From Brooklawnia propionicigenes (lineage in GTDB: Bacteria > Actinomycetota > Actinomycetes > Propionibacteriales > Propionibacteriaceae), in NCBI RefSeq assembly GCF_030297015.1, contig NZ_AP028056.1, forward strand, positions 1,870,939 to 1,934,938: a stretch of DNA of 64,000 nucleotides. Direction: 5' to 3'. Made by a program: the position numbers and the translations under genes. Shown piece by piece: positions 37,415-58,637 of the stretch; the stretch's first letter is position 1, and the number at the start of each line of letters is the position of its first letter. Below the pieces are notes generated by a model. It worked only from the letters and a program-made list of their open reading frames with translations, was not told the DNA's origin and made no database searches.

Positions 37415-37474
37415 TTGAGCATGCTCAAAATATCCTGGAGTCCTGTTCTAACATCGACCATTGAGCATGCGCAA
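37415..37474 (-). promoter_or_regulatory. Two 14-bp palindromic operators before the transfer operon
   Basis: TTGAGCATGCTCAA (37415-37428, perfect) and TTGAGCATGCGCAA (37461-37474, one mismatch) lie 46 bp apart, start to start, upstream of the ArdC-like gene. On the minus strand a TATTTT -10-like box touches the first palindrome. The same motif occurs twice before the XRE regulator gene at 58701, so both promoters are probably controlled by that regulator. Confidence 0.7.
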
Positions 37475-37551
37475 GCCCGTGGTGCCTCACTGTCAAGTCC
37501 CCGGATGGTGGGGGGCCGTGCCTCACATACTTTTCCCCGCGAGGCGGGGGG

Positions 37552-37662
37552 TTAGCTGGCTCGGGTTTTGAGGCCTGTGGGGTCGGGGGCTTTCCAGCTG
37601 ATGTGGTCGTGGAGGCGTCGTGTCTTGCGGGCTGCGAGCCTGGTGAGTTCTTGCTGGATCTC
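37552..37662 (-). pseudogene. 3' fragment of the outer IS transposase
   Basis: Reads TEIQQELTRLAARKTRRLHDHISW and ends LKTRAS, the usual C-terminal helix of this transposase type. It joins in frame to residue Thr of LQRRIT at about 57336 across the CGGT duplication. Separated from the rest of its gene by 19.7 kb. Confidence 0.8.
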
Positions 37663-37693
37663 GGTTGTCGCGCGTCAGACTTAGCCCTGATCC

Positions 37694-39124
37694 GTAAGTT
37701 CTTGGGTGGCCCGGGAGGGCTGGGTGTGGCTGAGCCTTGATCGCCCCTGATGGCTCCGATGGATTGGCCGCCCGGCTCCTCCTGGGACGCCTTGACTGCT
37801 GATTGAGATGCGCGTCCTGGTCGCTGTTTACGGATCTGTCGGCGGGGTGTTCCTTCGGGCCACGACATTGCTCGCATGCTCGAAGGAGGAACTTGATGAA
37901 GGAACAGATCCCGCTCGGCTGGGCGGGCATCGATGTCGGCAAAGGTCATCACTGGATCTGCCTCATCGACGAGACCGGCACCACGGTCTGGTCGGCGAAG
38001 GCGGTGAACGACGAGGCAGCGATCCTCGACGCGGTCAGCAGCGTGCTCGCCCGCGCCGACGAGGTCGTCTGGGGAGTCGACGTCACCGGGACCATGTCCG
38101 GGCTGCTGCTCGCGTTGTTGGCGGCGCACGGTCAGCGAGTGAGGTACGTGCCCGGCCGGACGGTGAACCAGATGTCGGTCGCATACCGCGGTGAAGCCAA
38201 GACCGACGCCCGCGACGCCTACGTCATAGCCGAAACGCTGCGGCACCGCGGCGATCTTCAGGAGGTGGAGGTCTCCACCTCGTTGGTGACCGAACTGCGG
38301 CTGCTGGTGACTCATCGCACCGACCTGGTCGGTGACCGGGTCCGGATGGTCAACCGGCTCCGTGACGTGCTCAGCGGCTACTTCCCTGCACTGGAGCGGT
38401 CGTTCGACTACGCCCACAGCCGCGGCGCGCTGACCCTGCTGACCGGCTACCAGACGCCGCAGGCGATCCGCCGGACCGGTGCGTCGCGGCTGCGGGCATG
38501 GCTGGTCAAGCGGAAGGTCCGCAGCGCCGACCAGATCGCAGCAGCCGCACTGGTCGCGGCCAAGGCCCAGCAGACCGTCGTGCCCGGGCAGGACGTCGCG
38601 GCCAGCATCGTGGCCGACCTCGCCACCCAGCTCCTGGCGATCGGTTCGCGGATCTCCGAGCTGGACGCCCGGATCACCAGCACCTTCCGGGGCGCACCCC
38701 CAAGCCGAGATCATCGAGTCCCTGCCAGGCATGGGCCCGATCCTGGGCGCCGAGCTCATCGCCGCAGCAGGCGACCTCAACGGCTACGCGAACGCCGGCC
38801 GGCTCGCCTCAGCCGCCGGGCTGGTGCCGGTCCCGCGAGACTCCGGACGGCGCACCGGGAACCTGCACCGCCCGCAGCGCTACTCACGCAAGCTGCGCAG
38901 GGTGTTCTACCTCTCCGCCTCAGCCGCCATGATGCGCGAGGGACCCAACCGCGACTACTACCTCAAGAAGCGCGGACAGGGCCACGGACACGTCCAAGCG
39001 CTCATCGCGCTATCCCGCCGACGCGTCGACGTCCTCTGGGCTCTGCTTCGCGACAACCGGCTCTTCGAAATCGCTCCACCTACTCGAGAACCGATGGCTC
39101 GAACGGCTTGACAAAGTCATTGAG
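37694..39124 (+). mobile_element. IS110-family element 1, inside the left repeat of IS1380 copy 1
   Basis: About 1.43 kb. It separates CCCTGATCC (37685-37693) from AATCCACCGAGGT (39125-39137); rejoined, these give the same repeat that ends IS1380 copy 1 at 40760 (CCCTGATCCACCGAGGTT on the reverse strand). About 200 bp of non-coding left-end DNA precedes the transposase gene, room for a bridge RNA. Exact ends are uncertain by a few bases. Confidence 0.7.
37896..39111 (+). pseudogene. IS110-family transposase, frameshifted
   Basis: DEDD/Ser-type transposase of the IS110 family. The N-terminal RuvC-like half is intact (GWAGIDVGKGHHWICLID; KTDARDAYVIAETLRHRG), and the C-terminal transposase_20 half (EIIESLPGMGPILGAELIAAAGDLNGYANAGRLAS) continues in another frame. 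The shift is one extra base in the C run at 38697-38701; with four C the frame reads GAPQAEIIESLPGMG and is whole, about 404 aa. The ATG at 37896 has GAAGGAGGA upstream. The element is probably immobile unless the run reverts or is a sequencing error. Confidence 0.85.
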
Positions 39125-40760
39125 AATCCACCGAGGTGAGTCGGGGGGTTGAGCGTGGCGTAGCGCGAGAGTGCCCCTCTGAGCAGGGAGGATGTTGATT
39201 GCGACGTCAACTTCCACCCACTCAAGAGGGGCACCTCGTAGGTGAAACCTTCTCACGCTGTACGGGCCGTGTTCGATGACCCGAACCTGGTGTCGGCTGC
39301 TGGTCTGGTTCCCGCGCTGCGGCTGGCCGGGGCGGCCGGGCTTGAGGACCTCCTCGAGCAGCGGTTGAGCGTCGGGTCGCCGAACGCGACGACGAAGGCG
39401 ACATGCGTGGTCGCTGGGATGCTGGCGGGCGCGGACAGCATCGAGGACCTGGACCTGCTGCGCCACGGCGGGATGGCCCGGTTGTTCGAGGGGGTCCGAG
39501 CCCCGTCGACGTTGGGCACGTTCCTGCGCTCGTTCACCCACGGGCACGTGCAGCAGCTCGACGCGGTGAACGGCCGGCTCCTGGCCGGTCTGAGCACCCA
39601 GGTGCCTGGTCTGCTCCCTGGGGGCGGGTGTGCGGCGGGGATGGCGTTCATCGACCTGGACGACACCATCCGTGAGGTCCACGGCTACGCCAAGCAGGCC
39701 GCCGCCTACGGCTACACCCGTCAGCGGGGTCTGAACGTCCAGCTCGCGACCGTGTCCACACCGTTGGCAGCGCCGGTGATCGCTCGCGCGCGGCTACGAC
39801 GGGGGAACACCGCTTCGGCGGCCGGGGCCGGGCGGATGCTCGCCCAGGCGATCGTGACCGCCCGGGCCGCCGGTGTCCGGAGCCAGGTGCTGTGCCGGGC
39901 GGACTCAGCCTACTACGGGTGGGCGCTGGTGGGCACCGCCCTGCGTCACGACGCCTGGTTCAGCGTGACCGCGCGGATGGACCCCAAAGTCACCGCCGCG
40001 ATCGCGAGTATCGCCGAGGACGCGTGGCACCCGATCCAGTACACCCACGCGGTCTTCGACCACCAGGAGCAGCGCTGGATCAGCGACGCCGAGGTCGCCG
40101 AGATCGACTTCGTCGCGTTCACCGGGCGTCGCAAGGCCGAGCACGTGCCCTGCCGGCTGGTCGTGCGCCGGGTCCGGCGTCTTGGCCCGTCCGGGCACGG
40201 CAACGACCAGGGTGAGCTGTTCGCGAGCTACCGTCACCACGCGTTCATCACCAACTCCACCTTGGACACCGTCGCCGCCGACGCCCGCCACCGCGACCAC
40301 GCGATCGTCGAGCAGGTCATCGCCGAGCTCAAGGACGGGCCCCTGGCACACCTGCCCTCAGGCCACTACGCGGCCAACGCGGCCTGGGTCGCCTGCGCAG
40401 TCATCGCGTTCAACACCGCCCGCGCCACCGCTGCTGCGGCGGACCTGGCCAAGGCCCGGTGGGCGAGCCTGCGCAAGAAGATCATCAACGTCCCCGCGCG
40501 AATCGCCGCGTCCGGCCGCCGCCTCATCCTGCACCTGCCCGTCCACTGGCCCTGGGCCCAGCACTGGCAGACCCTGCACGCCGCTGCGACCGGCCCACCC
40601 CGGCCGCTCACAACCTGACCAACCCGCCCCCACAGGCACGACCAAGGACCCCGACAGTGGAAGAGCCGGACAGACCGGCAGGCCAAGCACACCCACCACG
40701 CTGCCCCAGCCGAACCCCACCACCGACGGCCACCACCGAATCAACCTCGGTGGATCAGGG
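39125..40760 (+). mobile_element. IS1380-family element, copy 1 (left repeat split by IS110)
   Basis: Inner left repeat AATCCACCGAGGT at 39125-39137; right repeat ACCTCGGTGGATCAGGG ending at 40760. The outer 9 bp of the left repeat lie at 37685-37693 beyond IS110 element 1. The element carries an intact-looking transposase. It is the left arm of the composite transposon. Confidence 0.78.
39242..40618 (+). CDS. IS1380-family transposase, copy 1
   Basis: 458-aa DDE transposase of the IS1380 family. N-terminal DDPNLVSAAGLVPALRLAGAAGLEDLLEQRL and KATCVVAGMLAGADSIEDLDLLRHGGM are typical. The catalytic core shows AFIDLDDTIREVHGYAKQAAAYGYT (first Asp), CRADSAYYGWALV (second Asp) and DHAIVEQVIAELKDGPLAHLPSG (Glu). 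No frameshift is seen. GTG at 39242 is the start, preceded by a palindromic leader (GAGTGCCCCTCT and AGAGGGGCAC). It is related to but clearly different from copy 2 at 54535. Confidence 0.92.
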   Translation: MKPSHAVRAVFDDPNLVSAAGLVPALRLAGAAGLEDLLEQRLSVGSPNATTKATCVVAGMLAGADSIEDLDLLRHGGMARLFEGVRAPSTLGTFLRSFTHGHVQQLDAVNGRLLAGLSTQVPGLLPGGGCAAGMAFIDLDDTIREVHGYAKQAAAYGYTRQRGLNVQLATVSTPLAAPVIARARLRRGNTASAAGAGRMLAQAIVTARAAGVRSQVLCRADSAYYGWALVGTALRHDAWFSVTARMDPKVTAAIASIAEDAWHPIQYTHAVFDHQEQRWISDAEVAEIDFVAFTGRRKAEHVPCRLVVRRVRRLGPSGHGNDQGELFASYRHHAFITNSTLDTVAADARHRDHAIVEQVIAELKDGPLAHLPSGHYAANAAWVACAVIAFNTARATAAAADLAKARWASLRKKIINVPARIAASGRRLILHLPVHWPWAQHWQTLHAAATGPPRPLTT

Positions 40761-40818
40761 CTGAGCCGGCAGCGAGCAGTGGCGAACCCGGCGTCGGTGT
40801 CCCCCTCGGAGGCCGTCC

Positions 40819-43800
40819 ATGTCCGTCGCTCCCCGCCACCGGGCGCGCAGTGCACCCCGACCGGTCCGCCGGTCCCGCCCCGTCGCCACCGTCCTGGCCG
40901 TCCTCGCCCTGGTGCTGACCGGGTGGATCGCACCGGCCAGTGCCGACACGATCAGCTCGAGCCTCGGCATGGACGGCCGCACCACGGTCGTCGCAGGCTC
41001 CTCGACCGTCGTCGACTTCTGGCTCGTCCAGACCAGCGACGACGGTCGCCCCAATTGCAACGTCAACCCCGGCACGCTGCGTCTCGCCGTCGCCCCTGCC
41101 GTCACCGTCACGGCCCCCACCCTGGTGATCCGCGACTGCGGCCAGGCCGCGGGGGTCCCGGTCACGTTCTCCGGTGCGACACCCGGCGAGTACGTCGTGA
41201 CCGCGTCGATGGACGACGTGCGGGGCGGCAGCTTCACCAGCGCGACCTTCACGCTGACGGTGGCGGCCCCGGCCGACACGACCGCGCCCGTGCTCGCCCT
41301 GCCCGGCCCGCTGACCGTCGAGGCGACCGGCCCCTCCGGCGCGCCCGCCGCCTGGACCGCGTCCGCGTACGACGAGGGCGATGCCGCCTCGACCCCGGTG
41401 ACCTGTACGCCCGCCTCGGGCAGCACCGTTGGCCTCGGGACCACCACGGTGACGTGCACGTCCGTCGACTCGCGCGGGAACACGGCGACCGGCACCTTCG
41501 GGGTCACGGTGGTCGACACGACCGGACCGGTCATGTCGCCGCAGACCGTGACCGCCGAGGCGACGTCAGGCGGCGGTGCCGTCGTGACGCTCGCCGTCAC
41601 CGCGCACGACCTCGTGGACGGCCCGGTCGGCGTCCTGTGCCAGACCCCGGCCGGTGACCTCTACCCCCTCGGGACGACCGAGGTCGGGTGCTCGGCCTCC
41701 GATAGCCGCGGGAACGGGTCGACCACGACGGCGACCGTCACCGTCGCCGACACCATCCCCCCGTCGATCTCCGTGCAGGACCTCACCGTCGAGGCCACCT
41801 CGGCCGCCGGGGCGGTGGTCGAGTACGTCGCGACGGCGGCCGACGCCGTCAGCGGTCCGGTGCCCGTGGTGTGCGGCACCGCCTCCGGTGCCGTGTTCCC
41901 GCTCGGCACCACGACCGTTCACTGCGAGGCCACGGACGCCGCCGGGAACACGGGCTACGCCTCCTTCCAGGTGACCGTCGCCGACACGACCGCGCCCACC
42001 CTCACGCTCCAGAGCGTGACGGTCGAGGCCACCGGGCCGAGCGGAGCCGTCGCGGCCTTCGCGACCTCCGCCCACGACGACGTCGACGGCGAGCTCGAGG
42101 TGAGCTGCAGCCCGACCGCGGGCTCGCTGTTCGCGCTCGGGACGACCACGGTCGCGTGCTCGTCCACCGATGCGGCGGGGCAGACCGCCTCGGGCGAGCT
42201 GACGGTGACCGTCGTCGACACGACGCCCCCCGTGCTGGACCTCACCGATCTGGTCCTCGAGGCCACCGGACCGGACGGTGTCGTGGCGACCCCGATCGCG
42301 CCGAGCGCCACGGACCTGGTCGACGGTGTCCTGCCGGTCGACTGCGGGATCGCGCCGGACACGCTCTTCCCGCTCGGGGTGACCGAGGTCGCGTGCTCGG
42401 TCGAGGACAGGGCGGGCAACCCCGCCTCCGGTACGTGGACGATCCGGGTGGTCGACACCACCCCGCCCGTCCTCCAGGTCCAGGACCTCGTCCAGGAGGC
42501 CACCGGGCCCGACGGCGCGGTCGTCACCTTCGCCCCGGTGGTCACGGACGCCGTGAGCCCCGACCTGGTGGCCGGCTGCGCACCGGCCTCCGGGAGCACC
42601 TTCGGCCTGGGTAGCACCCCCGTCAGCTGCTCGGCGACCGACGCCGCGGGCAACACCGGCGTCGCCGCGTTCGTCGTGACCGTCGAGGACACCACCGCAC
42701 CCGCCTACGCCCCGGCCGACGTCGTCGTCGAGGCGACGGGAGCCGACGGGGCCGTGGCGACGTGGGGTACCACGGCCCACGACCTCGTGGAGGGCCCGAT
42801 CACCGCCTCCTGCACCCCCGCCCCCGGGTCGGTCTTCCCGATCGGTACGACGACGGTCGAGTGCTCCGTCGCGGACAGCCTCGACAACCGCACGACGGCG
42901 TTCCTCACCGTCACCGTCGAGGACACGGTGGGCCCCGAGCTCACCCTCCCCGGCACGGTCGTCGCCGAGGCCACCGGGCTGGACGGCGCCGACGTCACCT
43001 TCCGGGCCTCGGCCGTCGACCTGGTCGACGGTGAGACCGAGGTCGACTGCCGGCCGGCGTCCGACAGCCGGTTCGCACTCGGCTCGACGACCGTGACCTG
43101 CTCGTCCCGGGACGCGCAGGGCAATACCACCGAGGGCTCGTTCGAGGTCCTCGTGCAGGACACCACCGGCCCGGTCGTCTCCGTGGCCTCCCGGACCGTC
43201 GAGGCGACGGGGCCGGACGGCGCGGTGGTCGACCTCGAGGCCACCGCTCGCGACGCCGTCGACGGTGACCGCCCGGTGATCTGCGTCCCGGCGTCGGGGA
43301 GCACGTTCCCCCTGGGTGAGACGACGGTGACCTGCGAGTCGTTCGACAGCCGGGACAACCGCGGGGTCACCGAGGTGACCGTCACCGTGGGTGACACCAC
43401 CGCTCCGGCGCTCACGCTCGTCGACGTCGTCGCCGAGGCGACCGGTCCGCTGGGGGCGGAGGTCACCTACGTGGCCACGGCCGTCGACGTGGTCGACGGG
43501 GACGTGGATGTGACGTGCGACCCGCCGTCGGGCAGCCTCTTCGCGATCGGCGCGACGACCGTCGGGTGCTCGGCGTCCGACACCCGGGGCAACACCGCCG
43601 AGGACACCCTCGAGGTGCTCGTTCGTGACACCACCGCGCCCCGGCTCACGCTGACGGGTGCCACGGTCGAGGCCACCGGGCCGAACGGTGCGACCGCGAC
43701 GTTCACGGCCACGGCGGAGGACCGGGTCGACGGCGACGTCACGGTCGCCTGCGACTACGCCTCGGGAGCGACGTTCCCGGTGGGGACCACCACCGTGGCC

Positions 43801-44913
43801 TGCACCGCGACCGACGCGGCCGGGAACACCGGGTCCGGCGAGCTGCTGGTCGTCGTGACCGACACGACGGCGCCCGACCTCACCCTCCCGGTCGTCGCTC
43901 CCCAGGAGGCGACCGGAGCCGCGGGGGCCGTGGTCGCGTTCGAGGCGACCGGGTTCGACCTGGTCGACGAGGACGTGCCGGTCGTGTGCGCACCGGCCTC
44001 GGGCTCGATGTTCCCCCTCGGTGCCACGGAGGTGAGCTGCAGCGCCGAGGACTCGCGGGGCAACCGCGTGTCCCGCTCGTTCGAGGTGACGGTCGTGGAC
44101 ACGACCGCCCCGGTCGTCACCGTCACACCGGTGACGGTCGAGGCCACCTCGCCGGACGGTGCCGCGGTTGCGTACACCGCCACGGCCGTCGACCTCGTCG
44201 ACGGGACGGTCCCCGTGACCTGCACGCCGGCCCCGGGGAGCGTGTTCCCCCTGGGGGCCTCCGAGGTCGAGTGCGAGGCCGTGGACGCCGCCGGCAACTG
44301 GGCGGTCACCCGCCACGGGGGCATCACGGTGGTCGACACCACGGCGCCCACGTTGTCCGTGCCGGGCAGCCTGACGGTGACCGCGACGTCCGCGGCCGGC
44401 GCGGCCGTGTACTACGCGGTCTCCGCGACGGACCTGGCCGACCCGGACCCCCTGGTCGCGTGCAGCGTCGCCTCGGGTGCGGTCGTCCCGCTCGGCACCA
44501 CGACCGTGACGTGCACCGCCACCGACGCGTCGGGCAGCACCGCGCAGAGGTCGTTCACCGTCACCGTCCAGGTGGCGTGGTCGGGCCTGGCGGCGCCGAT
44601 CTCCGTCGACGGCAGGGCGGCCTTCAAGTCCGGGTCCACCATCCCGGTGAAGTTCTCGCTCACGGGCGCGAGCGCCGGGGCCACCGGAGCGCCGGCGACC
44701 CTGTCCGTGGCGAAGGTCGGCGCGGCAGGCGGGGAGGAGAGCCTCACGGTGCTCTCCACCTCGGCGGCGGACTCGGGCAACCAGTTCCGGGTGTCCTCGG
44801 GCCAGTACGTCTACAACCTGAGCACGAAGGGCTGGGGCGAGGGCGTCTACGTCCTGCGGCTCGACCTCGGTGACGGGGTGGACCGGGCGACGCAGATCAC
44901 CGTGCGTCGCTGA
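40819..44913 (+). CDS. Secreted protein with 14 HYR-type repeats
   Basis: 1364-aa exported protein. A twin-Arg-rich signal region (RRSRPVATVLAVLALVLTGW, cleavage near ASA-DT) is followed by an N-terminal domain (about 45-150) and fourteen HYR (immunoglobulin-like hyalin) repeats of about 82 aa. Each begins DTTxPxL, contains VEATGPxGA and LGTTxVxCSA, and holds a Cys pair. The C-terminal domain (about 1255-1364) has the PxKF pattern, SGSTIPVKFSLTG, ending in an all-beta VLRLDLGDG segment. No LPxTG anchor or membrane helix. Likely an extracellular adhesion or matrix protein. It starts 58 bp past IS1380 copy 1 and is the first passenger gene. Confidence 0.88.
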   Translation: MSVAPRHRARSAPRPVRRSRPVATVLAVLALVLTGWIAPASADTISSSLGMDGRTTVVAGSSTVVDFWLVQTSDDGRPNCNVNPGTLRLAVAPAVTVTAPTLVIRDCGQAAGVPVTFSGATPGEYVVTASMDDVRGGSFTSATFTLTVAAPADTTAPVLALPGPLTVEATGPSGAPAAWTASAYDEGDAASTPVTCTPASGSTVGLGTTTVTCTSVDSRGNTATGTFGVTVVDTTGPVMSPQTVTAEATSGGGAVVTLAVTAHDLVDGPVGVLCQTPAGDLYPLGTTEVGCSASDSRGNGSTTTATVTVADTIPPSISVQDLTVEATSAAGAVVEYVATAADAVSGPVPVVCGTASGAVFPLGTTTVHCEATDAAGNTGYASFQVTVADTTAPTLTLQSVTVEATGPSGAVAAFATSAHDDVDGELEVSCSPTAGSLFALGTTTVACSSTDAAGQTASGELTVTVVDTTPPVLDLTDLVLEATGPDGVVATPIAPSATDLVDGVLPVDCGIAPDTLFPLGVTEVACSVEDRAGNPASGTWTIRVVDTTPPVLQVQDLVQEATGPDGAVVTFAPVVTDAVSPDLVAGCAPASGSTFGLGSTPVSCSATDAAGNTGVAAFVVTVEDTTAPAYAPADVVVEATGADGAVATWGTTAHDLVEGPITASCTPAPGSVFPIGTTTVECSVADSLDNRTTAFLTVTVEDTVGPELTLPGTVVAEATGLDGADVTFRASAVDLVDGETEVDCRPASDSRFALGSTTVTCSSRDAQGNTTEGSFEVLVQDTTGPVVSVASRTVEATGPDGAVVDLEATARDAVDGDRPVICVPASGSTFPLGETTVTCESFDSRDNRGVTEVTVTVGDTTAPALTLVDVVAEATGPLGAEVTYVATAVDVVDGDVDVTCDPPSGSLFAIGATTVGCSASDTRGNTAEDTLEVLVRDTTAPRLTLTGATVEATGPNGATATFTATAEDRVDGDVTVACDYASGATFPVGTTTVACTATDAAGNTGSGELLVVVTDTTAPDLTLPVVAPQEATGAAGAVVAFEATGFDLVDEDVPVVCAPASGSMFPLGATEVSCSAEDSRGNRVSRSFEVTVVDTTAPVVTVTPVTVEATSPDGAAVAYTATAVDLVDGTVPVTCTPAPGSVFPLGASEVECEAVDAAGNWAVTRHGGITVVDTTAPTLSVPGSLTVTATSAAGAAVYYAVSATDLADPDPLVACSVASGAVVPLGTTTVTCTATDASGSTAQRSFTVTVQVAWSGLAAPISVDGRAAFKSGSTIPVKFSLTGASAGATGAPATLSVAKVGAAGGEESLTVLSTSAADSGNQFRVSSGQYVYNLSTKGWGEGVYVLRLDLGDGVDRATQITVRR

Positions 44914-44922
44914 TCCGATCCA

Positions 44923-44960
44923 GCACGAGGGCTCCCGGCGTGGCCGGGGGCCCCTCGTGC
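44923..44960. terminator. Strong bidirectional terminator
   Basis: Long inverted repeat: GCACGAGGG-CTCCCGGC and GCCGGGGG-CCCCTCGTGC around a GTG loop (44923-44960). It lies between the convergent HYR gene and the P-type ATPase gene. Confidence 0.75.
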
Positions 44961-44978
44961 GCGCGGGCCCCGCCTTGC

Positions 44979-47759
44979 TCAGGACGCCGTCAGGGTGGGC
45001 GGGAAGACCCGCCGCAGGGCCGCCTTCGCCACCTCGACCACCAGGAAGACCCCCACCGCGATACCGAGGGTCAGCCCCCAGTAGGACGCGGGCAGCGGCG
45101 CGGAGCCGAACAGCGTGTTCATGACGGGCGCGTAGACGAACAGCGCCTGGAGGGCGAGGAGCGCCGCCACCGAGAGCCACACCACCTTGTTCGAGAACCA
45201 CTGCCCCAGCCGCAGGCTCGACCCGCGCAGGTTGCGGCAGTTGAACAGGTACCCCACCTGGCCCATGGCCAGCGTCGTCACCGCGAGCGTCTGCGCCTGG
45301 GCGTCGGCGATGCCCTGCCCACGGGCCAGGTAGTACATCGCCCAGGTCGCGCCACCGATCAGGAGGGACGTGAGGGCGATCTGGGCCAGCGCGGCCTTGT
45401 CGACGATCGCCCCGCCGGGGATCCGCGGGGGCCGGCGCATGACGTCCGGCTCGGCCGGCTCGAAGGCGAGTGCGAGCGACAGCGTCACCCCGGCGATGAG
45501 GTTCACCCAGAGGATCTGCACCGGCGCGAGGGGGAGGGCCAGGCCGAGCATGACGGCGGTGAGCAGCACCAGCGACTGCGCCCCGTTCGTCGGCAGCAGG
45601 AAGACGATCGACTTCTGGATGTTGTCGAACGTCCGGCGTCCCTCCTCCACAGCCTTCTCGATGGTGGCGAAGTTGTCGTCGGCCAGGACGATCTCGGCCG
45701 CCTCCTTGGTGGCCTCCGTGCCCTTGATCCCCATGGCGACGCCGACGTCGGCCCGGCGCAGCGCCGGGGCGTCGTTGACGCCGTCCCCGGTCATGGCGAC
45801 GACCTCGCCGTTCGCCTGCAGGGCCTGGACGAGACGGAGCTTGTGCTCGGGGCTGACCCGGGCGAACGTGTCGTACCGGCGGACGATCCCGCGGAGGTCC
45901 TCGTCGCTCGCGGCGTCGAGCTCCCGGCCGGTGATCGCCTCGTCGGCGGTGTCCGTCGAGGTGTCGATGATGCCCATCTGGCGACCGATGGCGGTTGCCG
46001 TCCCGGTGTGGTCGCCGGTGATCATCTTTACGCGGATGCCGGCCTCCTTGGCCTCGGCGACCGCGTCGATCGCCTCGGGACGGGGCGGGTCCAGGATGCC
46101 GACGACCCCGAGCAGCACCAGGTCGCCGTCCAGGTCGCCGAGGGTGAGGGTCTGGTCCCCGCTCTCGTTCGCACCCTGCTCGGCCGTCCGGCGGGCGGCG
46201 GCGAGGACCCGCAGCCCGCGGGCGCCGAGCTCCTCGACGCGGGCGTCCCACGCGGCGCGGTCGAGGGCGTGGGGCTGCCCGTCGGGGCCGAGCTCGGTGG
46301 CGCAGCGGTCCATGACGCGGTCGGGCGCGCCCTTTACGTGGACGACGACGTGCCCCTCAGGGGTCCGGTCGAGCGTCGCCATGAGCTTGTGCTCCGACTC
46401 GAAGGGCACGGCGGCCAGCCGCTCGTGGCCGTCCGCGTCGAACCCGACCTTCGCGGCCAGGGCGAGCAGGGCGCCCTCGGTGGGCTCGCCGACGACGCTC
46501 CACCGGCCCTCCTGCTCCGCCAGCGTCGAGTCGTTGGCGACGGCCATCGCGGTGACGAGCGCGCGCAGGTCGGCGTCGGCGTCCAGCGTCGCGTCCCGCC
46601 CCTCGGCGGTCACCCGGCCGGACGGCTCGTAGCCGAGGCCCTCCACCTCGTAGGCCCGCGCGGGCGTGACGACGTCCTGCACCGTCATCTCGTTCTTGGT
46701 GAGGGTGCCGGTCTTGTCCGAGCAGATCACGGTCACCGAGCCGAGGGTCTCCACGGACGTCAGGCGCCGGGTGATGGCGTTGCGCCCGGCCATGTGCTGG
46801 ACGCCCCGCGCGAGGGTGATGGTCACGACGGCGGGCAGGCCCTCGGGGATCGCCCCGACGGCGAACGCGACCGCTGCCGTCAGCAGCAGGGCGATCGGGT
46901 AGTCGTGGACGGTCCCGCCGAAGACCATCATGAGCACGGCCACGCCCAGGATGATCTTGGACAGCAGCACGCTGAACCGGTGGATCTTCCTCTCCAGCGG
47001 CGTCTGCAGCTGCTCGACGGAGTCGATCATCGAGCTGATGCGGCCGATCTCCGTCTGCGGCCCGGTGGCGACGACGACGCCGGTCCCGCGCCCGCTGACC
47101 ACGAGGCTGCCGGAGTACGCGACGCAGAAGCGGTCGCCGATGCCGGCGTCCTCGTCGACGGGCTCCGTCTGCTTGTTCACCGGCTCGGACTCGCCCGTCA
47201 GGCCGGACTCCTCGGTGCGCAGCTCGGTGGCCGCGACGACCCGGAGGTCCGCCGGAACGCGGTCCCCCGACTTGAGTCGCACCACGTCGCCGGGCACGAG
47301 CGTGTCCGCCTCGACCTCCGACCACCGGCCGTCCCGCCGGACGTGCGCCGTGAGCGACAGCATGGTCCGCAGGCCCTCGAGGGCGCGCTGCGCCCGCCCC
47401 TCCTGGACGAAGCCGATGACGGCGTTGATGACCGCCACCGCGAGGATGACCGCCATGTCGACCCACTCGCCCAGCACGGCCTTGAGCACGGCGGCGGCGA
47501 GTAGCACGTAGATGAGGACGTCGTTGAAGTGCCGTGCGAGCCTCAGCCAGGCCGGGTCCGGCTCGGCCTCGGGCAGCCGGTTCGGCCCGTACCGGTCGAG
47601 CCGCTCGGCGGCCTCGGGCCCGGAGAGGCCGGCATCCGTCACGCCCAGCTCAGCGAGCACGGCGTCGACCGGGCGCGCGTGGGCGGTGCCCACCGCAGCC
47701 CGAGCGTCGTCGTCCACGGCCCGGTCGGGCTGGGGCGGCTCGGAGATGGTGTGCGTCAT
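44979..47759 (-). CDS. PII-type P-type cation-transporting ATPase
   Basis: 926-aa P-type ATPase with the full set of PII features: N-terminal cation-ATPase domain (GLSGPEAAERLDRYGPNRLPE), LTGESEPV in the actuator, the M4 motif AVGAIPEGLPAVVTI, the phosphorylation site SDKTGTLTKNEMTV, and the hinge TGDGVNDAPALRRADVGVAMG. Ten membrane helices are likely. Compared with SERCA, M4 Glu is kept, but M5 reads PTNGAQ (Glu to Gln) and M6 NLIAGVTLSLALAFEP lacks the Thr-Asp pair that binds calcium, so calcium transport is doubtful. It is the last gene of the operon with the antiporter-like subunits, 19 bp after them. Confidence 0.93.
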   Translation of the reverse strand: MTHTISEPPQPDRAVDDDARAAVGTAHARPVDAVLAELGVTDAGLSGPEAAERLDRYGPNRLPEAEPDPAWLRLARHFNDVLIYVLLAAAVLKAVLGEWVDMAVILAVAVINAVIGFVQEGRAQRALEGLRTMLSLTAHVRRDGRWSEVEADTLVPGDVVRLKSGDRVPADLRVVAATELRTEESGLTGESEPVNKQTEPVDEDAGIGDRFCVAYSGSLVVSGRGTGVVVATGPQTEIGRISSMIDSVEQLQTPLERKIHRFSVLLSKIILGVAVLMMVFGGTVHDYPIALLLTAAVAFAVGAIPEGLPAVVTITLARGVQHMAGRNAITRRLTSVETLGSVTVICSDKTGTLTKNEMTVQDVVTPARAYEVEGLGYEPSGRVTAEGRDATLDADADLRALVTAMAVANDSTLAEQEGRWSVVGEPTEGALLALAAKVGFDADGHERLAAVPFESEHKLMATLDRTPEGHVVVHVKGAPDRVMDRCATELGPDGQPHALDRAAWDARVEELGARGLRVLAAARRTAEQGANESGDQTLTLGDLDGDLVLLGVVGILDPPRPEAIDAVAEAKEAGIRVKMITGDHTGTATAIGRQMGIIDTSTDTADEAITGRELDAASDEDLRGIVRRYDTFARVSPEHKLRLVQALQANGEVVAMTGDGVNDAPALRRADVGVAMGIKGTEATKEAAEIVLADDNFATIEKAVEEGRRTFDNIQKSIVFLLPTNGAQSLVLLTAVMLGLALPLAPVQILWVNLIAGVTLSLALAFEPAEPDVMRRPPRIPGGAIVDKAALAQIALTSLLIGGATWAMYYLARGQGIADAQAQTLAVTTLAMGQVGYLFNCRNLRGSSLRLGQWFSNKVVWLSVAALLALQALFVYAPVMNTLFGSAPLPASYWGLTLGIAVGVFLVVEVAKAALRRVFPPTLTAS

Positions 47760-47778
47760 CGTCGGTCCTTTCTGGGGG

Positions 47779-49605
47779 TCACTGCCCGGGAAGGGTCAGG
47801 CTGAGCAGGAGGGCGAGGGTCACGAGCGCGGCCATGGCCGCTCCGGTCGAGCGGCGCGTGGTCCACGCCTCCATGCGGTCGAGGAGAACCTGCCGGTCCC
47901 TCGCCCACCGGGCGGGTCCCGCCGTCGTGACGGCGACCGACCGGACGGCACGCGCTCCGATCGTACCACCACTGACGACGCCCTGTCTCAGCAGGGCGGC
48001 CCCGCGCTCACAGGTGACCACCAGGTCACCGGCCGGGACGGGCAGGACGGGCAGCGTCCGGCGTCGTGCGACGGCGCGGGCGAGCGCGGCGAGCGCAAGG
48101 CCGAGGAGCACGGGCCAGGTCGCGTCCCACACGACGACACCGGTCGGCGCGTCCACCGCCGCGAGGACACGGACCGGCAGCACCGCGGTGGCCGCGACCA
48201 CCGCGGCGAGCAGGAGCAGCCACGGCACGAGGGACGTCCCTGCCGTGCCGGTCACCGTGCCGGTCGCCGTGCCGGTCGCCGTGCCGGACGCAGTGCCGGT
48301 CGCCGTGCCGGACGGCGTGACCCCGGACGTGCCGGGCCCCGGCCGCGCCGCGGTCCCGTGCGCGGACCACCCGGGCACGAGGAGGAGCAGGCGCACCATG
48401 AGCACGGTCGTCCCGGCGGCGGCGAGGGACAGGGCCAGGCCCACGGCGTCGCCGACGGCGGCGAGCTCCAGGCCGTGCTTGACCCACCCCTTCGCCACGG
48501 CCCCGCTGGTCGCGGGCAGCCCGGCGAGCGAGGCCGCCGCGAGCACCATGCCGACGAGCAGCACCCGGTGCGTCCGCCTCGAGGCCGTGCGCCGGACGAG
48601 ACCGACCCCGAGGAAGAGGGCGGCCTTCGCCAGGCCGTGGTGCAGCGCGTACACGGCAGCGCCCGCGAGTGCGACGGGCGCCGCCTCCGGCACCCGGAGC
48701 GCCACGCCCACCAGGACGGTGAGGAACCCCATCTGGCTGACGCTCGAGTACGCCAGCACCACCTTGGGGTCGCGCTGGGTGAGGCCCAGCGCCACGCCGG
48801 CGAAGGCGGTGAGCACACCGGCGACGATCACCACGTCGGACCACGAGACCAGCGCCGCCTCACCCGCCGGCAGCAGCCGCACCCAACCGACCAGGCCCGC
48901 CTTGATCATCGCGCCGCTCAGCGCGGCGCTGGCGGGGAACGGCGCGGCCGGGTGCGCGAGGGGCAGCCACACGTGCAGGCCGATGACGCCCGCCTTGATG
49001 CCGAACCCCGCGAGCAGGAGACCGATCAGGAGATCCCGGTGGTCCGACGTCGCGACGGTCGCGGCGACGTCGTCCAGGCACAGGCCGGGCGCCTCGGACA
49101 CGGCGAGGAGCAGCGCCCCGAGCAGCAGCGTCTCGCCGATCACGGCGAGCACGACGTAGACCCGGCCCGCCCGGCGCGCCGCATCGGTCCGGGTGTGGAC
49201 GACGAGGCCGTAGGCGGCGAACGTCATCACCACGAACGCGGAGTAGAAGGTCACGACGTCCGTCGCGACGATCAGCCCCACGTTGCCGGTGAGGGCGAGC
49301 ATCCAGAGGACGGCGTACCCCCGGTGCTGCTCGACCTCCGCGCGGCTGTAGGCCCCGGCTGCCGCCCACACGAGTGCCGTCAGCAGCAGCAGGAGCCGCC
49401 CGACGTCGTCGACGCCGGGCTGGACGCCCAGCAGCAACCAGTCCAGGCGGAGCGCCGGGAGGGCCTCCCCGAGCAGGGCGAGGACGGCGGCCGGCGCCGG
49501 GGCGGCGACGAGCAACCAGGACGTGCGCGGACCTGGCCGCGCGGCCAGGAGCACCGCGGCGAGGACGGGGAGGAGGACCGGGCCGAGCCAGAGGAGGACG
49601 CTCAC
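47779..49605 (-). CDS. NuoL/MrpA-like proton-conducting membrane subunit
   Basis: 608-aa member of the complex-I/Mrp antiporter-like family (Proton_antipo_M). About 14 membrane helices. Conserved charged residues: Glu in TM5 (AVIGETLLLGALL), Lys in FGIKAGVIGLHVWLPLAHPAAPFPASAALSGAMIKAG, Lys in HHGLAKAALF and Lys in GAVAKGWVKHG. A low-complexity GT-rich linker near residue 440 is encoded by a 12-bp tandem repeat, and the C-terminal tail has a further helix. GTG at 49605 overlaps the next gene upstream (GTGA). Couples proton movement to ion exchange if functional, but no NADH-oxidising or hydrogenase partner is nearby. Confidence 0.85.
   Translation of the reverse strand: MSVLLWLGPVLLPVLAAVLLAARPGPRTSWLLVAAPAPAAVLALLGEALPALRLDWLLLGVQPGVDDVGRLLLLLTALVWAAAGAYSRAEVEQHRGYAVLWMLALTGNVGLIVATDVVTFYSAFVVMTFAAYGLVVHTRTDAARRAGRVYVVLAVIGETLLLGALLLAVSEAPGLCLDDVAATVATSDHRDLLIGLLLAGFGIKAGVIGLHVWLPLAHPAAPFPASAALSGAMIKAGLVGWVRLLPAGEAALVSWSDVVIVAGVLTAFAGVALGLTQRDPKVVLAYSSVSQMGFLTVLVGVALRVPEAAPVALAGAAVYALHHGLAKAALFLGVGLVRRTASRRTHRVLLVGMVLAAASLAGLPATSGAVAKGWVKHGLELAAVGDAVGLALSLAAAGTTVLMVRLLLLVPGWSAHGTAARPGPGTSGVTPSGTATGTASGTATGTATGTVTGTAGTSLVPWLLLLAAVVAATAVLPVRVLAAVDAPTGVVVWDATWPVLLGLALAALARAVARRRTLPVLPVPAGDLVVTCERGAALLRQGVVSGGTIGARAVRSVAVTTAGPARWARDRQVLLDRMEAWTTRRSTGAAMAALVTLALLLSLTLPGQ
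48245..48316. repeat. Six tandem copies of a 12-bp in-frame unit
   Basis: Unit GTGCCGGTCGCC with copies starting at 48245, 48257, 48269, 48281, 48293 and 48305. The 12-bp length keeps frame and encodes the GTATGTASGTATGT linker of the NuoL-like protein on the minus strand. Copy number changes would only alter linker length. Confidence 0.85.
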
Positions 49606-51152
49606 GGGCCCATCACCGCCTCGCTGATGGACAGCGCCCAGGTCAGGGGGCTCAGCGGCGACGCCGCCAGGACCCCGACGAGGAGCACGCTGACGCCGGT
49701 GACGAGGGTCGGGAGCAGCAGCCAGGGGTCACGCTCGGCCGACCGGGGACCGGCGGGCGCGGGCGCGGACCGACCGGCGGGCGCGGACCGACCGGCGGGC
49801 GCGGGTGCGGGCGTGTCCGGCGCGTAGAACCACGCGCGGGCGAGCACCGGCAGGAAGTACGCCGCGTTCAGCGCGCTGCTGAGCAGGAGCACGGGGACGA
49901 TCCAGCCCTGCCCGGCGTCCAGAGCGCCGGTGCCCAGGTACCACTTGCTGATGAAGCCCGCCGTCGGCGGGATGCCGATCATGCCCAGCGCCGCGATGGT
50001 GAACGCCGTCATCGTCAGAGGCATGCGCCGGCCGATGCCGCGCATCTCGCTGATCTTCGTGACGCCCGCCCGCTTGGCGAGGATCCCGGCGCAGTAGAAC
50101 AGGGTGACCTTCTGGATCCCCTGGTGGACGAGGTGGACCAGGCCCCCGGCCAGCCCGGCGACGCTGAGGATCGTGATGCCGAGGACCACGTAGGACAGCT
50201 GGCTCACGGTGGAGTACGCCAGGCGTCGCTTGAGGTCGTCCTGGGCGAGGGCCCGGGCGGACCCGTACACGATCGTCACGGCGGCCAGTACGGCGAGCGG
50301 GGTCAGCAGGCCGAGCTGCTGGACCAGGTGGACCCCGTACAGGTCGTGCACCACCCGCACGATCCCGTACGCGCCGGCCTTGACGACGGCGACGGCGTGC
50401 AGGAGGGCACTCACGGGCGCCGGCGCGACCATGGCCTTGGGCAGCCAGCCGTGGAGCGGGACGATGGCCGCCTTGACGGCGAGCCCGCCCACCAGCAGCA
50501 CGAAGAGGAGCGTCAGCAGTCCGGGGTGCGTGGCCGCGAGCCCGGTCAGCGGCGCGTAGTCGAGGAACTCCACCGGCCCGGCCAGGACGTGCAGCAGGGC
50601 GATCCCGACGAGCAGCACGGCGCCGCCCGCCACGCTGTAGACGAGGTAGGCGCGGGCGCCGAGCAGCGCCTTGCGCGTGCCCTGGTGGGCCACGAGCGGG
50701 TAGGTCGCGATGGTCAGGAGCTCGTAGAACAGCAGGAAGGTGACGAGGTTGCCGGCCAGCGCGATGCCGATCGTCGCGGTCACGCACAGGCTGAAGAAGC
50801 CGAAGAACCGGGACCGGCGCTGCCCGGCCTCGAGGAACCCGATCGCGTAGACGGTCGTGGTCAGCCACAGCAGCGAGGACAGCGTCACGAAGAGCAGGGG
50901 GATGCGGTCGACCCGCAGCACCAGGTCGATCCCGGGCAGCAGGGCCCGGCGCCACTCGTACTCCTGCCCGGATGCCACCCCTACGAGCAGCGCGAGCACG
51001 AGGCCGAGCTTGACGACCGCGCCGGCCATGTTGACCACGCGGCGCGGACCCTCGCTCCGCTCCGGGAGCAGGAAGATCACCACCGCCGGGACGAGTGCTG
51101 TCAGCACGAGTGCCAGCGGGAGGAGGGGCGCGAGCTCAGGCACCGCCACCAC
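49602..51152 (-). CDS. MrpD/NuoM-like proton-conducting membrane subunit
   Basis: 516-aa Proton_antipo_M protein with about 14 membrane helices. TM5 carries ELLTIATYPLVAHQG with its Glu; the TM7-TM8 region is GLAVKAAIVPLHGWLPKAMVAPAPVSALLHAVAVVKAGAYG; TM12 shows HQGIQKVTLFY and later TAGFISKWYLG. These are the ion-path Lys and Glu of MrpD/NuoM/NuoN subunits. Start GTG at 51152 follows GCAGGAG and overlaps the next gene upstream by 17 bp. Part of a four-subunit membrane module. Confidence 0.85.
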   Translation of the reverse strand: MVAVPELAPLLPLALVLTALVPAVVIFLLPERSEGPRRVVNMAGAVVKLGLVLALLVGVASGQEYEWRRALLPGIDLVLRVDRIPLLFVTLSSLLWLTTTVYAIGFLEAGQRRSRFFGFFSLCVTATIGIALAGNLVTFLLFYELLTIATYPLVAHQGTRKALLGARAYLVYSVAGGAVLLVGIALLHVLAGPVEFLDYAPLTGLAATHPGLLTLLFVLLVGGLAVKAAIVPLHGWLPKAMVAPAPVSALLHAVAVVKAGAYGIVRVVHDLYGVHLVQQLGLLTPLAVLAAVTIVYGSARALAQDDLKRRLAYSTVSQLSYVVLGITILSVAGLAGGLVHLVHQGIQKVTLFYCAGILAKRAGVTKISEMRGIGRRMPLTMTAFTIAALGMIGIPPTAGFISKWYLGTGALDAGQGWIVPVLLLSSALNAAYFLPVLARAWFYAPDTPAPAPAGRSAPAGRSAPAPAGPRSAERDPWLLLPTLVTGVSVLLVGVLAASPLSPLTWALSISEAVMGP

Positions 51153-52569: not shown

Positions 52570-52865
52570 CGCGAGGGGTCCTCGTCCAGCGGGAGGTCGG
52601 CGTGCCCGAGCTCGGGGCGCCGACCGGCGCCCTCCAGGTACCGGGCGACCAGCAGGAGGCCGGCGATCGTCAGGGCGCTGAGCGCCGCGGCGACGACGGC
52701 CCCCGTCCGGTGGGGCCCGAGGGCGACGAGCCCGACCACAGGTCCGGCAGCCATGACCGTGAGGCCTCCGAGCCGGTGCCGGGCCTGGTGGGCGGTGAGG
52801 AGCGCGGCGGCGCCCCCGGCGACGGCGATGACGCAGAGGGCGAGGAGCAGGGCCGGGAACTCCAT
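52560..52865 (-). CDS. NuoK/MrpC-like small membrane subunit
   Basis: 101-aa protein with three membrane helices (FPALLLALCVIAVAGGAAALL; LGGLTVMAAGPVVGLVALG; GAVVAAALSALTIAGLLLVARYL), the size and layout of NuoK/MrpC subunits, with an acidic C-terminal tail. First gene of the passenger operon. Its start, ATG at 52865, lies only 17 bp from the IS1380 terminus at 52882, so transcription may begin within the IS. Very short family, hence the moderate confidence in naming. Confidence 0.75.
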   Translation of the reverse strand: MEFPALLLALCVIAVAGGAAALLTAHQARHRLGGLTVMAAGPVVGLVALGPHRTGAVVAAALSALTIAGLLLVARYLEGAGRRPELGHADLPLDEDPSRWP

Positions 52866-52894
52866 GCCACGAGTCTATCGGCCCGGATCCACCG

Positions 52895-54286: not shown

Positions 54287-54534
54287 ATCCACGGTTCCCG
54301 TGGAGCCCTCCACCACCATGCTGACCTACAGGCTCACGAGCACCACAGGGGACATCGGGGTCGACCACGACGAACACAGCAAGTCTGAACCCAACCACAC
54401 CGGCACCGCAACGCTCGAACGGCACCGAATCTTCGCGCACCACGGTGCGCCTCGAAGACGGCGCCGCGTTGCTGACCTGGGAGGATGTGTCTTGCGACGG
54501 ACACGATCGACCAGACCGAGAGGGCATCTGACGG

Positions 54535-55869: not shown

Positions 55870-56057
55870 TCACCACCCACCGCCCCGACGACCAGGACCT
55901 CGGAGAAGCCGGCAGACCGGCGACTCAGACCTGCCCGTAACCCACCTCGGCAGCAGAGCACCTACCGACCACCAACGCCCCACCCCAACGCCAAGATCAA
56001 CGGTGGATCCGGGCTTAGTGGCAGGGCCGTTATGTAGGTCCTGAAGGAGAGTCCGAC

Positions 56058-56375
56058 ATGGGAAGACCACCAGTGATCCCGGTGGAGAAGAAGACCAGGA
56101 TTGTGTTGAGCATCCTGGCTGGAGAGATGACGATCGCTGAGGCTGCTCGGCGGGAGAAGGTCAGCGAGCAGTCGATCGGTCGGTGGAAAGCAGACTTCCT
56201 CGAAGCAGGCAAGGCTGGGCTCGCGGCAGGCAAGTCCGGGCCCTCAACTCGTGAGCAGCAGTTGGAGGCTGAGGTCACGGAGTTGACTCAGGCGTTGGGT
56301 GAGGCCGCGGTTGAGATTCGGGTGTGGAAGAAGTCGGCGGAGGGCAGGTTGGGCCCTTCGAGGACCTCGAGGTGA
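56058..56375 (+). CDS. IS3-family transposase OrfA
   Basis: 105-aa HTH protein of an IS3-family element (KTRIVLSILAGEMTIAEAARREKVSEQSIGRWKADFLEAG, then a leucine-rich helical stretch LEAEVTELTQALGEAAVEIRVWKK). Normally it is fused to OrfB by a programmed -1 frameshift near its end. The start ATG at 56058 has GAAGGAGAG upstream. The left terminal repeat of its IS is split 18 kb away at 37666. Confidence 0.88.
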   Translation: MGRPPVIPVEKKTRIVLSILAGEMTIAEAARREKVSEQSIGRWKADFLEAGKAGLAAGKSGPSTREQQLEAEVTELTQALGEAAVEIRVWKKSAEGRLGPSRTSR

Positions 56376-57322
56376 TCCGTTTGGAGGCGGGCATGTCGAC
56401 TTCGAGGTTCGTGAAGCTGATCGACATGCCCGAGCGCACGTGGCGTCGGTGGCAGGCCAAGGCCCGTCAGGGTCAGGGCCCGAAGGGGCCGTGGCCCCAG
56501 CCTGCCCGTAGCGCTGCGCGGGACCTGGTGGTCGGTCATGCGCTGGCCAAGCCGGTGTGGGGGCATCGCAAGATCTGGGCACTGACCCGCCATGACGGGC
56601 ACAAGGTGTCCCAGGCGACCGTGCTGCGGCTACTGCGTGACGAGGGCCTGCTGCTGGCGTCGCAGTCCAGAAGCAGCGCCGTGAACTCGCCGCCGACCGT
56701 AGAGCCGCGTTCGCGAAGATGCCTGATGGCCCGAACCAGGTGTGGCAACTGGACTTCTCCGAGTTCGAGACCACCACGGGCGGCACGTGGCGGATCGCAG
56801 GATGCCGGGACTGGTACTGACAAGTATGAGCATCCCTGGCATGTCTCACCCACCGGGAACAAGCACGACGCGATCGCCGCGGTCGAGCTCGCCTTGGCTG
56901 ACTACGAGGCCCTGTTCGGTCACCCGTTGGCCGATGCCTGCCCGATCAATGAGATCACTGGTGAGGTGCTGCCCGTGGTCACGATCGTGACCGACAACGG
57001 TGGCCCGTTCCGCTCGATCGACTTCGAGTTGTTCATCACCTCGCACCCCGAACTCCAACACGTCCGGACCAGGGTCAAGAGCCCAGGGCAGAACGGCTCA
57101 CGCGAACGCGGGTTCGGCACGTTGAAGTACGAACGCTTGTTCCTCGACGAGATCCCCGACGCGTTGACCTTGGTCGAACGAGCCGAAGACTACCGCATCG
57201 AGTACAACACCCAGCGCCCTCACGAGGCGATCGCCTGGAACCGGCCCCTCGAGGTCCACCTCGGGCGAGCCAGCACGACCGTCCCCACCTTTGAACAAGA
57301 AGAAGTCCTGCCAACTACTTGA
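56324..57322 (+). pseudogene. IS3-family OrfB with two compensating frameshifts
   Basis: The integrase half of the IS3 transposase. The start (MPERTWRRWQAK, KPVWGHRKIWALTRHDGHKVSQATVLRLLRDEGLLL) and end (PVVTIVTDNGGPFRSIDFELF, GQNGSRERGFGTLKYERLFLDEI, EYNTQRPHEAIAWNRPLEVHLG) are in one frame. About 50 codons between roughly 56665 and 56815 are read out of frame: the expected QRRELAADRRAAFAKMPDG and VWQLDFSEFETTTGGTW, with the first catalytic Asp, appear in another frame and then stop. Two opposite shifts restore the frame, so a protein is made but with a scrambled, inactive core. Confidence 0.82.
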
Positions 57323-58478
57323 CGCGGGACACGGTGATCCGGCGTTGTAGCGCGACGGGTTTGAGCGCTGCTTTCCGTGCGGCGAGTTCGGTTTGCTGTG
57401 CGGGGCTGAGCACCTGGGCGGTCAGCAGCCGCTGGTAGGGGGAGCGGGGTGTGTCGTAGACCCGTTTGCGGCGGCCGACGGTGTCGGTGGTCCAGCCGAC
57501 GGGTTTCTTGGTCGGGGTGAGAAAGTTGAGCCGGTCGTTGACCAGCGACCATAGTTCGTTGAGTAGGGCCAGTTCGGTGGCGGTGTCGTAGCGGTGGTAG
57601 AAGCCGTAGCGGCGCACGAGGTGGTTGTTCTTCGATTCGATGGTGGCTTGGTCGTTCTTCTTGTAGGGCCTGGCGCGGGTGAAGAACACTTCGCGTTGCC
57701 CGGCCCAGGCGACCAGGTCGTGGTTGATGAATTCCGATCCGTTGTCGCAGTCGATCCCTGTCACCGCGAACGGCACGGTGGCGACGAACAGGTCGAACGC
57801 GGCTCGGATATGGACGTGGGCGTTGTTGCGGATCGCGTGGGTGAAGACCCAGCCGGTGTGCATGTCGGTGAAGTTGACACTGCGAACGAACTCGCCCCGT
57901 AGCGTCGGGCCGCAGTGGGCCACCGTGTCGACCTCGAAGAACCCGGGTTCGGCTTCGACTTCGTCGCCGGCTTTACGGATCTGGATCGAGTTGCGCAGCA
58001 TGGTGCCCGGTTTGGTTGCCGTCTTCCCTCGGAGAGGGTCAGTGGCCCGGGCAGGGGTCAGGTAGCGGTCGATCGTGGCCGCCGACATCGACTCCAGCTC
58101 GCCGCGGACCTCCAGGCTGTAGCGTTCCTCGCCCCGGATCAGGACACCTTCGGCTTCCATCGCGTCGAGCCAGTCCCCCATACCGGCGGCCAGATACTTG
58201 CCGCAGCTGCCCCCGGAAGTGGCCCACACCTGTTGGAGGACTTTGACCGCGTCGTAGGAGTACTTCCGCGGTTTGGTCTTGCGCCGGTCGATCACCGCGA
58301 CCGTGGCCACCGCCCGACCGGGTGCTTGCTTCGCTCGGGCGACCAGCTGCTGGCGGGCGTGGTCACGGTTCCAGCCGGTGACCTCGACCACGTGATCCAG
58401 GATCACGCTCTTGCCCTTCCTCGGCGCCGCGGCATAAGCCAGGGCGTACTTCTTTGTGATCTCGAACCGGGCTGCCAT
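57315..58478 (-). pseudogene. 5' part of the outer IS transposase (DDE integrase type)
   Basis: 387-codon N-terminal part of an integrase-core transposase: MAARFEITKKYALAYAAAPRKGKSVILDHVVEVTGWNRDHARQQL (HTH), then FFEVDTVAHCGPTLRGEFVRSVNFTD (first Asp), GIDCDNGSEFINHDLVAWAG (second Asp) and KKNDQATIESKNNHLVRRYG (Glu). It ends artificially (LQRRIT then VSRVK) where the IS3 element is inserted; the natural end lies at 37552-37662. ATG at 58478 with GAGGAGAAG upstream is the start. Family name uncertain (ISNCY or IS481-like). The catalytic core is whole, so a slightly truncated enzyme may still be made. Confidence 0.82.
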
Positions 58479-58595
58479 CGACAGCTTCTCCTCAACCTCC
58501 ACACCCCATCCTCGCCGGCATCACGTACGCGGGGGAAAGTGTGTGAGGCACGGCCCCTACGTTCGCGGGGACTATGTGTGAGTCTCGTCGAAGCC

Positions 58596-58637
58596 TTGAT
58601 TTGTGCATGCTCAACGAGTAGCGTTGAGCATGCACAA
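58596..58637 (+). promoter_or_regulatory. Promoter and two palindromic operators of the XRE regulator
   Basis: -35 TTGATT (58596-58601), 17-bp spacer, -10-like TAGCGT (58619-58624). Operator TTGTGCATGCTCAA (58601-58614) fills the spacer and TTGAGCATGCACAA (58624-58637) covers the start region, ideal for autorepression. A CCACCC-GTGA-GGGTGG hairpin (58638-58653) follows in the leader. The same palindromes stand before the transfer operon at 37415 and 37461. Confidence 0.7.

Follow-up and report, generated by a model that had tools for sequence, protein, structure and literature searches.

The 64,000-nucleotide stretch of the Brooklawnia propionicigenes genome analyzed here (the window; NZ_AP028056.1, positions 1,870,939 to 1,934,938, forward strand) carries part of an integrative and conjugative element (ICE) whose control region is divided by 21 kb of inserted DNA. 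To the left of the insert lies the ArdC-like first gene of a leftward operon (36191 to 37270, minus strand), which encodes ArdcN and M78 domains. To its right lie three plus-strand genes encoding an EspR-like XRE regulator of 143 amino acids (58701 to 59132), a small ImmA/IrrE-like HEXXH protein with the motif HEFAH (59193 to 59657), and a membrane protein of the MAB_1171c family (59654 to 60661; NCBIfam NF042915, 111.9 bits against a cutoff of 100). Between these gene sets, four exact copies of the 14-bp palindrome TTGNGCATGCNCAA flank the insert in pairs: O1 (TTGAGCATGCTCAA, 37415 to 37428) and O2 (TTGAGCATGCGCAA, 37461 to 37474) on the left, and O3 (TTGTGCATGCTCAA, 58601 to 58614) and O4 (TTGAGCATGCACAA, 58624 to 58637) on the right. 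All four begin at the bases assigned to them in a preliminary description of this DNA (37415, 37461, 58601, and 58624), and the position of each is conserved in relatives.

A scan of the single-contig, 3.21-Mb genome, suggested with that description as a check on how common the palindrome is, returned just these four copies. Under a first-order model, 0.078 exact sites would be expected in the genome and 0.0016 in 64 kb; the reversed pattern, used as a control, has no match in this genome. With up to three mismatches allowed, the window contains 21 matches against a mean of 17.9 in shuffled sequence; near matches are not enriched, and it is the exact sites that stand out. The literature searched yielded no description of this operator region, and the 14-mer TTGAGCATGCTCAA is absent from a literature text search among the matches listed and, we infer, from the remaining matches.

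The inserted stretch spans 21,113 bp (37478 to 58590) and is bounded by two copies of a 5-bp target duplication, AAGCC (37473 to 37477 and 58591 to 58595, plus strand). Its limits are defined by two related insertion sequence (IS) copies and by relatives in which the sequence from O2 to O3 is continuous, including the first five found (L006 to L010), none of which has an insert. The preliminary description had recognized the insertion but set its bounds at 37484 and 58584, six bases off at each end. At the left of the insert is the first 67 bp of an IS481-like element (37478 to 37544), matching L043 and L044, and at the right is 1.2 kb of such an element (57378 to 58590, minus strand; 79 to 80% match to L043 and L044) with a transposase reading frame at 57315 to 58502. 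The two related copies, found at other places in the genome, are of full length (about 1.44 kb), are 79 to 80% identical to the window copy, and are bounded by the 5-bp repeats CTCAT and AGGCC. The window copy lacks about 0.16 kb between its two parts, and in place of the missing sequence stands 19.8 kb of other DNA that includes IS110, two IS1380 and one IS3-like gene, and cargo encoding an HYR-repeat protein, a calcium-type P-type ATPase, and two antiporter/NDH-like membrane proteins (40819 to 51152). A class-wide search with this 10.3-kb cargo was uninformative, the P-type ATPase having matches almost everywhere.

The transposase genes closest to both ends are oriented into the insert. One invaded copy is more likely than a composite transposon bounded by two complete ISs, which was also considered, since the left 67 bp and right 1.2 kb are nonoverlapping parts of a 1.4-kb IS. 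For the transposase, IS481 is the best NCBIfam match (E = 6.5e-10), with IS30 close behind; its score of 39 bits against an equivalog cutoff of 224 makes it at most a divergent relative, hence the name IS481-like. The element shares with IS481-family insertion sequences this best match, terminal inverted repeats, and a 5-bp duplication, and differs from them in the low score and in having been invaded.

The palindromes are arranged around two predicted divergent promoters. For the rightward promoter (P_R), the predicted -35 hexamer is TTGATT (58596 to 58601, plus strand), with TTG present in all 61 distinct control regions, and the predicted -10 is TAGCGT (58619 to 58624, plus strand), in which the A and last T are fixed in all 61 regions and the first T is present in 60. 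The spacer of P_R contains O3, and O4 sits at the probable start of P_R, the invariant last T of the -10 (TAnnnT) being common to O4. For the leftward promoter (P_L, minus strand), the predicted -35 is TTGCGC (37469 to 37474), nearly invariant in the 61 control regions, and the predicted -10, its position read from the alignment of relatives, is TAGAAC (37445 to 37450). O1 lies downstream of P_L and O2 overlaps its -35. P_L is less clear than P_R, since TTGCGC belongs to O2; the C of this hexamer that falls at a free position of the palindrome is nevertheless fixed in 61 of 61 regions.

The -35 hexamers of P_L and P_R are separated by 3 bp in the relatives (by 4 bp in the two loci whose O2-O3 spacing is 23 bp). 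The transposon inserted between these hexamers and so left the four sites, as well as the predicted core of each promoter, intact. Only nine start positions of a 5-bp duplication in the 312-bp intergenic region spare both -35 hexamers, a chance of about 3% when taken alone, and the use of one of them may reflect selection or luck.

Undisrupted relatives show the arrangement from which the torn copy departs. A contig scan supplied the best 80 of 211 relatives, from genera that include Tessaracoccus, Leucobacter, Microbacterium, Intrasporangium, Kocuria, Brevibacterium, and Actinomyces, and the exact pattern TTGN[GA]CATG[CT]NCAA was searched up to 320 bp upstream of XRE. Upstream sequence is available in 79 of these loci (L101 has just 9 bases before the XRE gene), and 78 of the 79 contain at least one exact site; in the remaining locus, L092, four sites are present, each one or two mismatches away from the pattern. 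No exact site occurs elsewhere in any of the 80 loci. Allowing two mismatches, O1, O2, and O3 are in register in 72 of 80 loci and O4 as well in 68. The commonest spacing is 46/22/23 (24 loci), and none of the 72 has an O2-O3 distance other than 22 or 23. Eight loci are out of register (L088, L101, L110, L118, L119, L123, L124, and L125); L088, from Brevibacterium mcbrellneri, has one operator and a partial ArdC near position 4928, as if the inter-operator region had been deleted.

Downstream of XRE, the HEXXH gene comes next in 79 of the 80 loci (in the other one, the contig stops after XRE), MAB_1171c is present in 78, and a divergent ArdC is present in 64, although 2 of the 16 loci without ArdC (L081 and L101) are too short on that side to judge. 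Uninterrupted relatives thus carry the palindromes between the same gene sets, in a compact region, as the preliminary description had anticipated.

Across the family, XRE was found in 17 of 198 genomes, and the exact pattern in 36 of 197. Of these 36 genomes, the 15 with at least three sites all carry XRE, and each of the remaining 21 has one or two sites. The two XRE carriers without exact sites are G147, with ACATGT-type sites, and G201, with a homologue of 25% identity. Ten stretches with isolated exact sites in other family genomes were inspected for seven window proteins. Nine of the stretches encode none of these proteins; the tenth, on contig C65 of G204, is another copy of the insertion. 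No relative was found among viral contigs. One genome, G177, contains two XRE copies (L012 and L022; 94% and 87%), each with four exact sites.

Several lines of evidence bear on which protein binds the palindromes. The region also adjoins the ArdC and Prim-Pol genes, as would be expected if another protein (ArdC or a host factor) were the binder or if the palindromes served the initiation of transfer or replication. ArdC was rejected as the partner because the sites persist without it, being kept in all 15 loci that lack ArdC and have upstream sequence. XRE, on the other hand, is well supported by sequence comparison as the cognate binder, given this persistence and a change in the center of the sites from GCATGC toward ACATGT where Thr54 of XRE is Met. 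Residue 54 lies within the recognition helix (50 to 58) of the modeled helix-turn-helix (34 to 43/50 to 58; block pLDDT, 94 to 95). Thr54 is present in the XRE of 79 of the 80 loci, whose exact sites are centered on GCATGC (apart from one hybrid site each in L046 and L098), whereas the Met54 homologues L106 and L019 each have three ACATGT sites and one hybrid. With the center changing along with the recognition helix and the layout tracking two divergent promoters, another binder or an initiation role appears quite improbable. That XRE acts on both gene sets had been proposed in the preliminary description, in the form of one repressor controlling transfer and itself; site persistence and covariation with residue 54 uphold the part of this proposal that names XRE as the binder, and the repression itself is predicted.

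Among 58 plasmid records with an XRE homologue, seven were opened (XRE 37 to 47% identical), and five of these, with Phe, Gln, or His at residue 54, have ACATGT-centered palindromes near the operon. In a class-wide search of still more distant EspR-type homologues, exact sites were present in 1 of the 29 loci examined (L137, with Thr54) and in none of the other 28. On a plasmid of Arthrobacter sp. FB24 (L023), related ACATGT palindromes occur 2.9 kb apart, at 1499 and 4434, one before the operon that ends in XRE and one just after XRE, a natural case of spread-out sites.

The nearest solved relative of XRE is EspR of Mycobacterium tuberculosis, whether judged by sequence profile, with a match that covers most of the protein (E = 1.4e-10), or by fold (best Foldseek match of the model; E = 1.9e-3, probability 1.00). 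ImmR is not among the sequence matches, and SinR and DdrO are weak fold matches only. In the HEXXH protein, H81, E82, and H85 are invariant in 31 sequences, and the M78 profile matches 28 of these 31 below threshold, the window protein scoring 14.5 bits against a curated cutoff of 22. It has no sequence match in the PDB, and its fold match to PprI is not significant. An above-cutoff M78 domain was rejected as the peptidase of the XRE operon, since that domain sits in ArdC and the XRE-linked HEXXH protein is the product of a separate gene. As for MAB_1171c, the sole paper found under this name (PMC8707978) reports less biofilm in a Mycobacterium abscessus knockout.

The sites, their register, and their conservation make it probable that the palindromes are XRE operators at two divergent promoters, that they were split by the IS481-like element, and that both halves are still controlled by XRE. 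In the ancestral ICE, the four operators would have stood together in about 0.3 kb of DNA, between promoters arranged back to back. When bound, XRE would cover the -35 of P_L (at O2), the spacer of P_R (at O3), and the start of P_R (at O4), with O1 downstream of P_L, and would shut off both the leftward ArdC/Prim-Pol/transfer operon and its own operon of XRE, HEXXH peptidase, and MAB_1171c membrane protein. The IS481-like element then inserted between the -35 hexamers, duplicating 5 bp of target sequence, and would later have been invaded by other DNA. Each promoter retained its predicted -35, its predicted -10, and two operators after the insertion. Because a regulator of this kind works in trans, the same protein probably still governs both halves. 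Contact between protein bound at O1/O2 and at O3/O4 would either be lost or span 21 kb.

The closest parallel is ICEBs1 of Bacillus subtilis, in which ImmR binds six sites at both promoters and is cleaved by ImmA (PMC8960796 and PMC6540685). Both elements have a gene for a small helix-turn-helix regulator beside a gene for a HEXXH peptidase, several sites at two divergent (here predicted) promoters, and ICE transfer genes on the other side. They differ in that the window regulator is nearest to EspR and not to ImmR or SinR, in that the window has four 14-bp palindromes and a third gene (that of the MAB_1171c membrane protein), and in that no Rap/Phr pair was detected among the families scanned in the window ICE. 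By analogy with ICEBs1, the HEXXH protein may inactivate XRE, perhaps in response to the membrane protein as a sensor. The best reading is a switch that would work like ImmR/ImmA but through a regulator resembling EspR, and that would now operate in trans, its halves having been separated; the divergent-operator part of this reading is well supported by the sequence comparisons.

EspR has been described as an activator or nucleoid-type organizer, and XRE, with EspR as its nearest solved relative, might likewise act at these sites mainly in such a role and not as a repressor. This is unlikely, as the positions of O2 over a predicted -35, O3 in a spacer, and O4 over a start suit repression, and the sites are confined to one region. 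XRE differs from EspR in this confinement, in its recognition helix, and in being the regulator of an ICE.

A number of observations weigh against XRE-controlled operators at divergent promoters. Strict sigma-70 scans detected neither P_L nor P_R, and the -10 of P_L stands at 17 or 18 bp, with two spacings among the relatives. The covariation of site and residue is imperfect: the Thr54 loci L046 and L098 have one hybrid site each, a further Thr54 homologue (L138) has degenerate sites only, and the Met54 cases number just two, each with its hybrid site, in loci uncorrected for relatedness. Two of the seven plasmid records opened (L025 and L026, with Glu and Ser at residue 54) have no sites, and neither do the chromosomal homologues L139 to L141 (Phe, Ala, or Ser). 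The reversed control pattern occurs three times in G177 and four times in G154 among the 197 genomes, and for the HEXXH protein neither family profiles nor fold comparison gave a significant match.

The condition of the torn copy bears on whether both halves still function. The XRE, HEXXH, MAB_1171c, and ArdC proteins of the window are full length compared with their relatives. The two sides, however, have different nearest relatives: the left is closest to L064 (ArdC 95.0%, against 79.5% for the right side), and the right is closest to L048, from Tessaracoccus sp. SD287 (MAB_1171c 97.2%, against 81.1% for the left side). Among 59 entries (58 loci and the window), left and right identities otherwise correlate at 0.94, and the window supplies the most extreme pair each way. 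Its P_R has a -10 of the L048 type, while the left side is of the other type. The change point of this mosaic (33197 to 37477 versus 58591 to 64000) lies at the insertion or within about 30 bp of it.

A second assembly, G204 (contig C65; L178 and L179), has the same left junction and insert interior as the window, with 3 mismatches over 35000 to 57377 and 61 over 33183 to 34999. Beyond a diverged right IS copy, its contig continues into unrelated sequence that by eye resembles a tRNA-Pro region. Within the 198 genomes, G204 was the only other one with this left junction, and its bin comprises 400 contigs with 9% contamination. Spread and recombination of the half that bears the insert would account for this, as would a chimeric or contaminated bin.

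These data allow two alternatives to be judged. The torn ICE could be a relic with leftover operators, halves that have lost their coregulation, and no further transfer, as 21 kb of inserted DNA, the most mosaic copy of the 59 compared, and a conspecific genome without the element (G137) might suggest. Against this are the four whole sites and predicted core promoters, the full-length proteins, and the recurrence of the left junction and interior in G204, contaminated as that bin is; we regard decay to a relic as possible but doubtful. That the 21-kb separation is an assembly artefact is very hard to credit. IS copies are common join points for errors, and the G204 contig differs on the right, but the genome was assembled as a single contig, a 5-bp duplication marks the junctions as it does those of the related IS copies, and the same left junction and interior appear in a second assembly.

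If the two halves do remain under XRE, the torn copy allows one to ask whether control requires the back-to-back arrangement and adjacent operators or the sites alone. A simple, testable switch conserved across several genera would also be an entry point to what turns on elements of the type IV secretion system (T4SS) type. More speculatively, XRE, the HEXXH peptidase, and MAB_1171c may form a switch running from membrane signal to peptidase to repressor that is common to a widespread actinobacterial family of ICEs and conjugative plasmids, with an operator code at residue 54 (Thr with GCATGC; Met and some other residues with ACATGT) sorting the elements into regulatory groups. As part of this tentative proposal, one repressor would silence both torn halves 21 kb apart, and the insert-bearing element would still circulate. 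Were such silencing true, the torn ICE would be a natural experiment.

Elsewhere in the ICE, leftward (minus-strand) transfer and replication genes occupy 17971 to 35262, with some rightward genes interspersed, and encode Prim-Pol (35259 onwards), DUF2637, ParB-like, M23, SCO6881, SCO6880, VirB4-like, and TraG/VirD4 proteins. The left end is marked by a gene for a large serine recombinase with Resolvase, Recombinase, and zinc-ribbon domains (14708 to 16459, minus strand) and by the left attachment core, TCCACC (14802 to 14807, plus strand), at the 3' end of a tRNA-Ala gene. The recombinase reading frame extends into this gene (14733 to 14807). The right core, also TCCACC, lies beyond the window at 96834 to 96839 in extended window coordinates. 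In the empty site of conspecific G137, tRNA-Ala runs straight into the sequence found here at extended coordinate 96834, delimiting an element of about 82 kb (14808 to 96839) in tRNA-Ala. With a TrwC relaxase encoded alongside defense genes in the right part beyond the window, an integrase, coupling protein, VirB4-like protein, and relaxase are present on one integrated element with attachment sites, which makes it a T4SS-type ICE. The same combination, including a TrwC relaxase, characterizes the T4SS-type ICEs of Actinobacteria, 17 of which are listed in PMC3218068.

Defense-like cargo beyond the window (L135, 23 to 12623; L136, 3567 to 4613) includes HmaA/B/C, Shedu SduA, two candidate defense proteins, and a CBASS-type oligonucleotide cyclase. 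Just past the right end of the ICE, extended positions 98150 to 100612 and L134 represent sequence shared with the conspecific at 99.9%, including a stretch that resembles the serine recombinase gene of the window (77%), and a second element may adjoin the ICE at this end.

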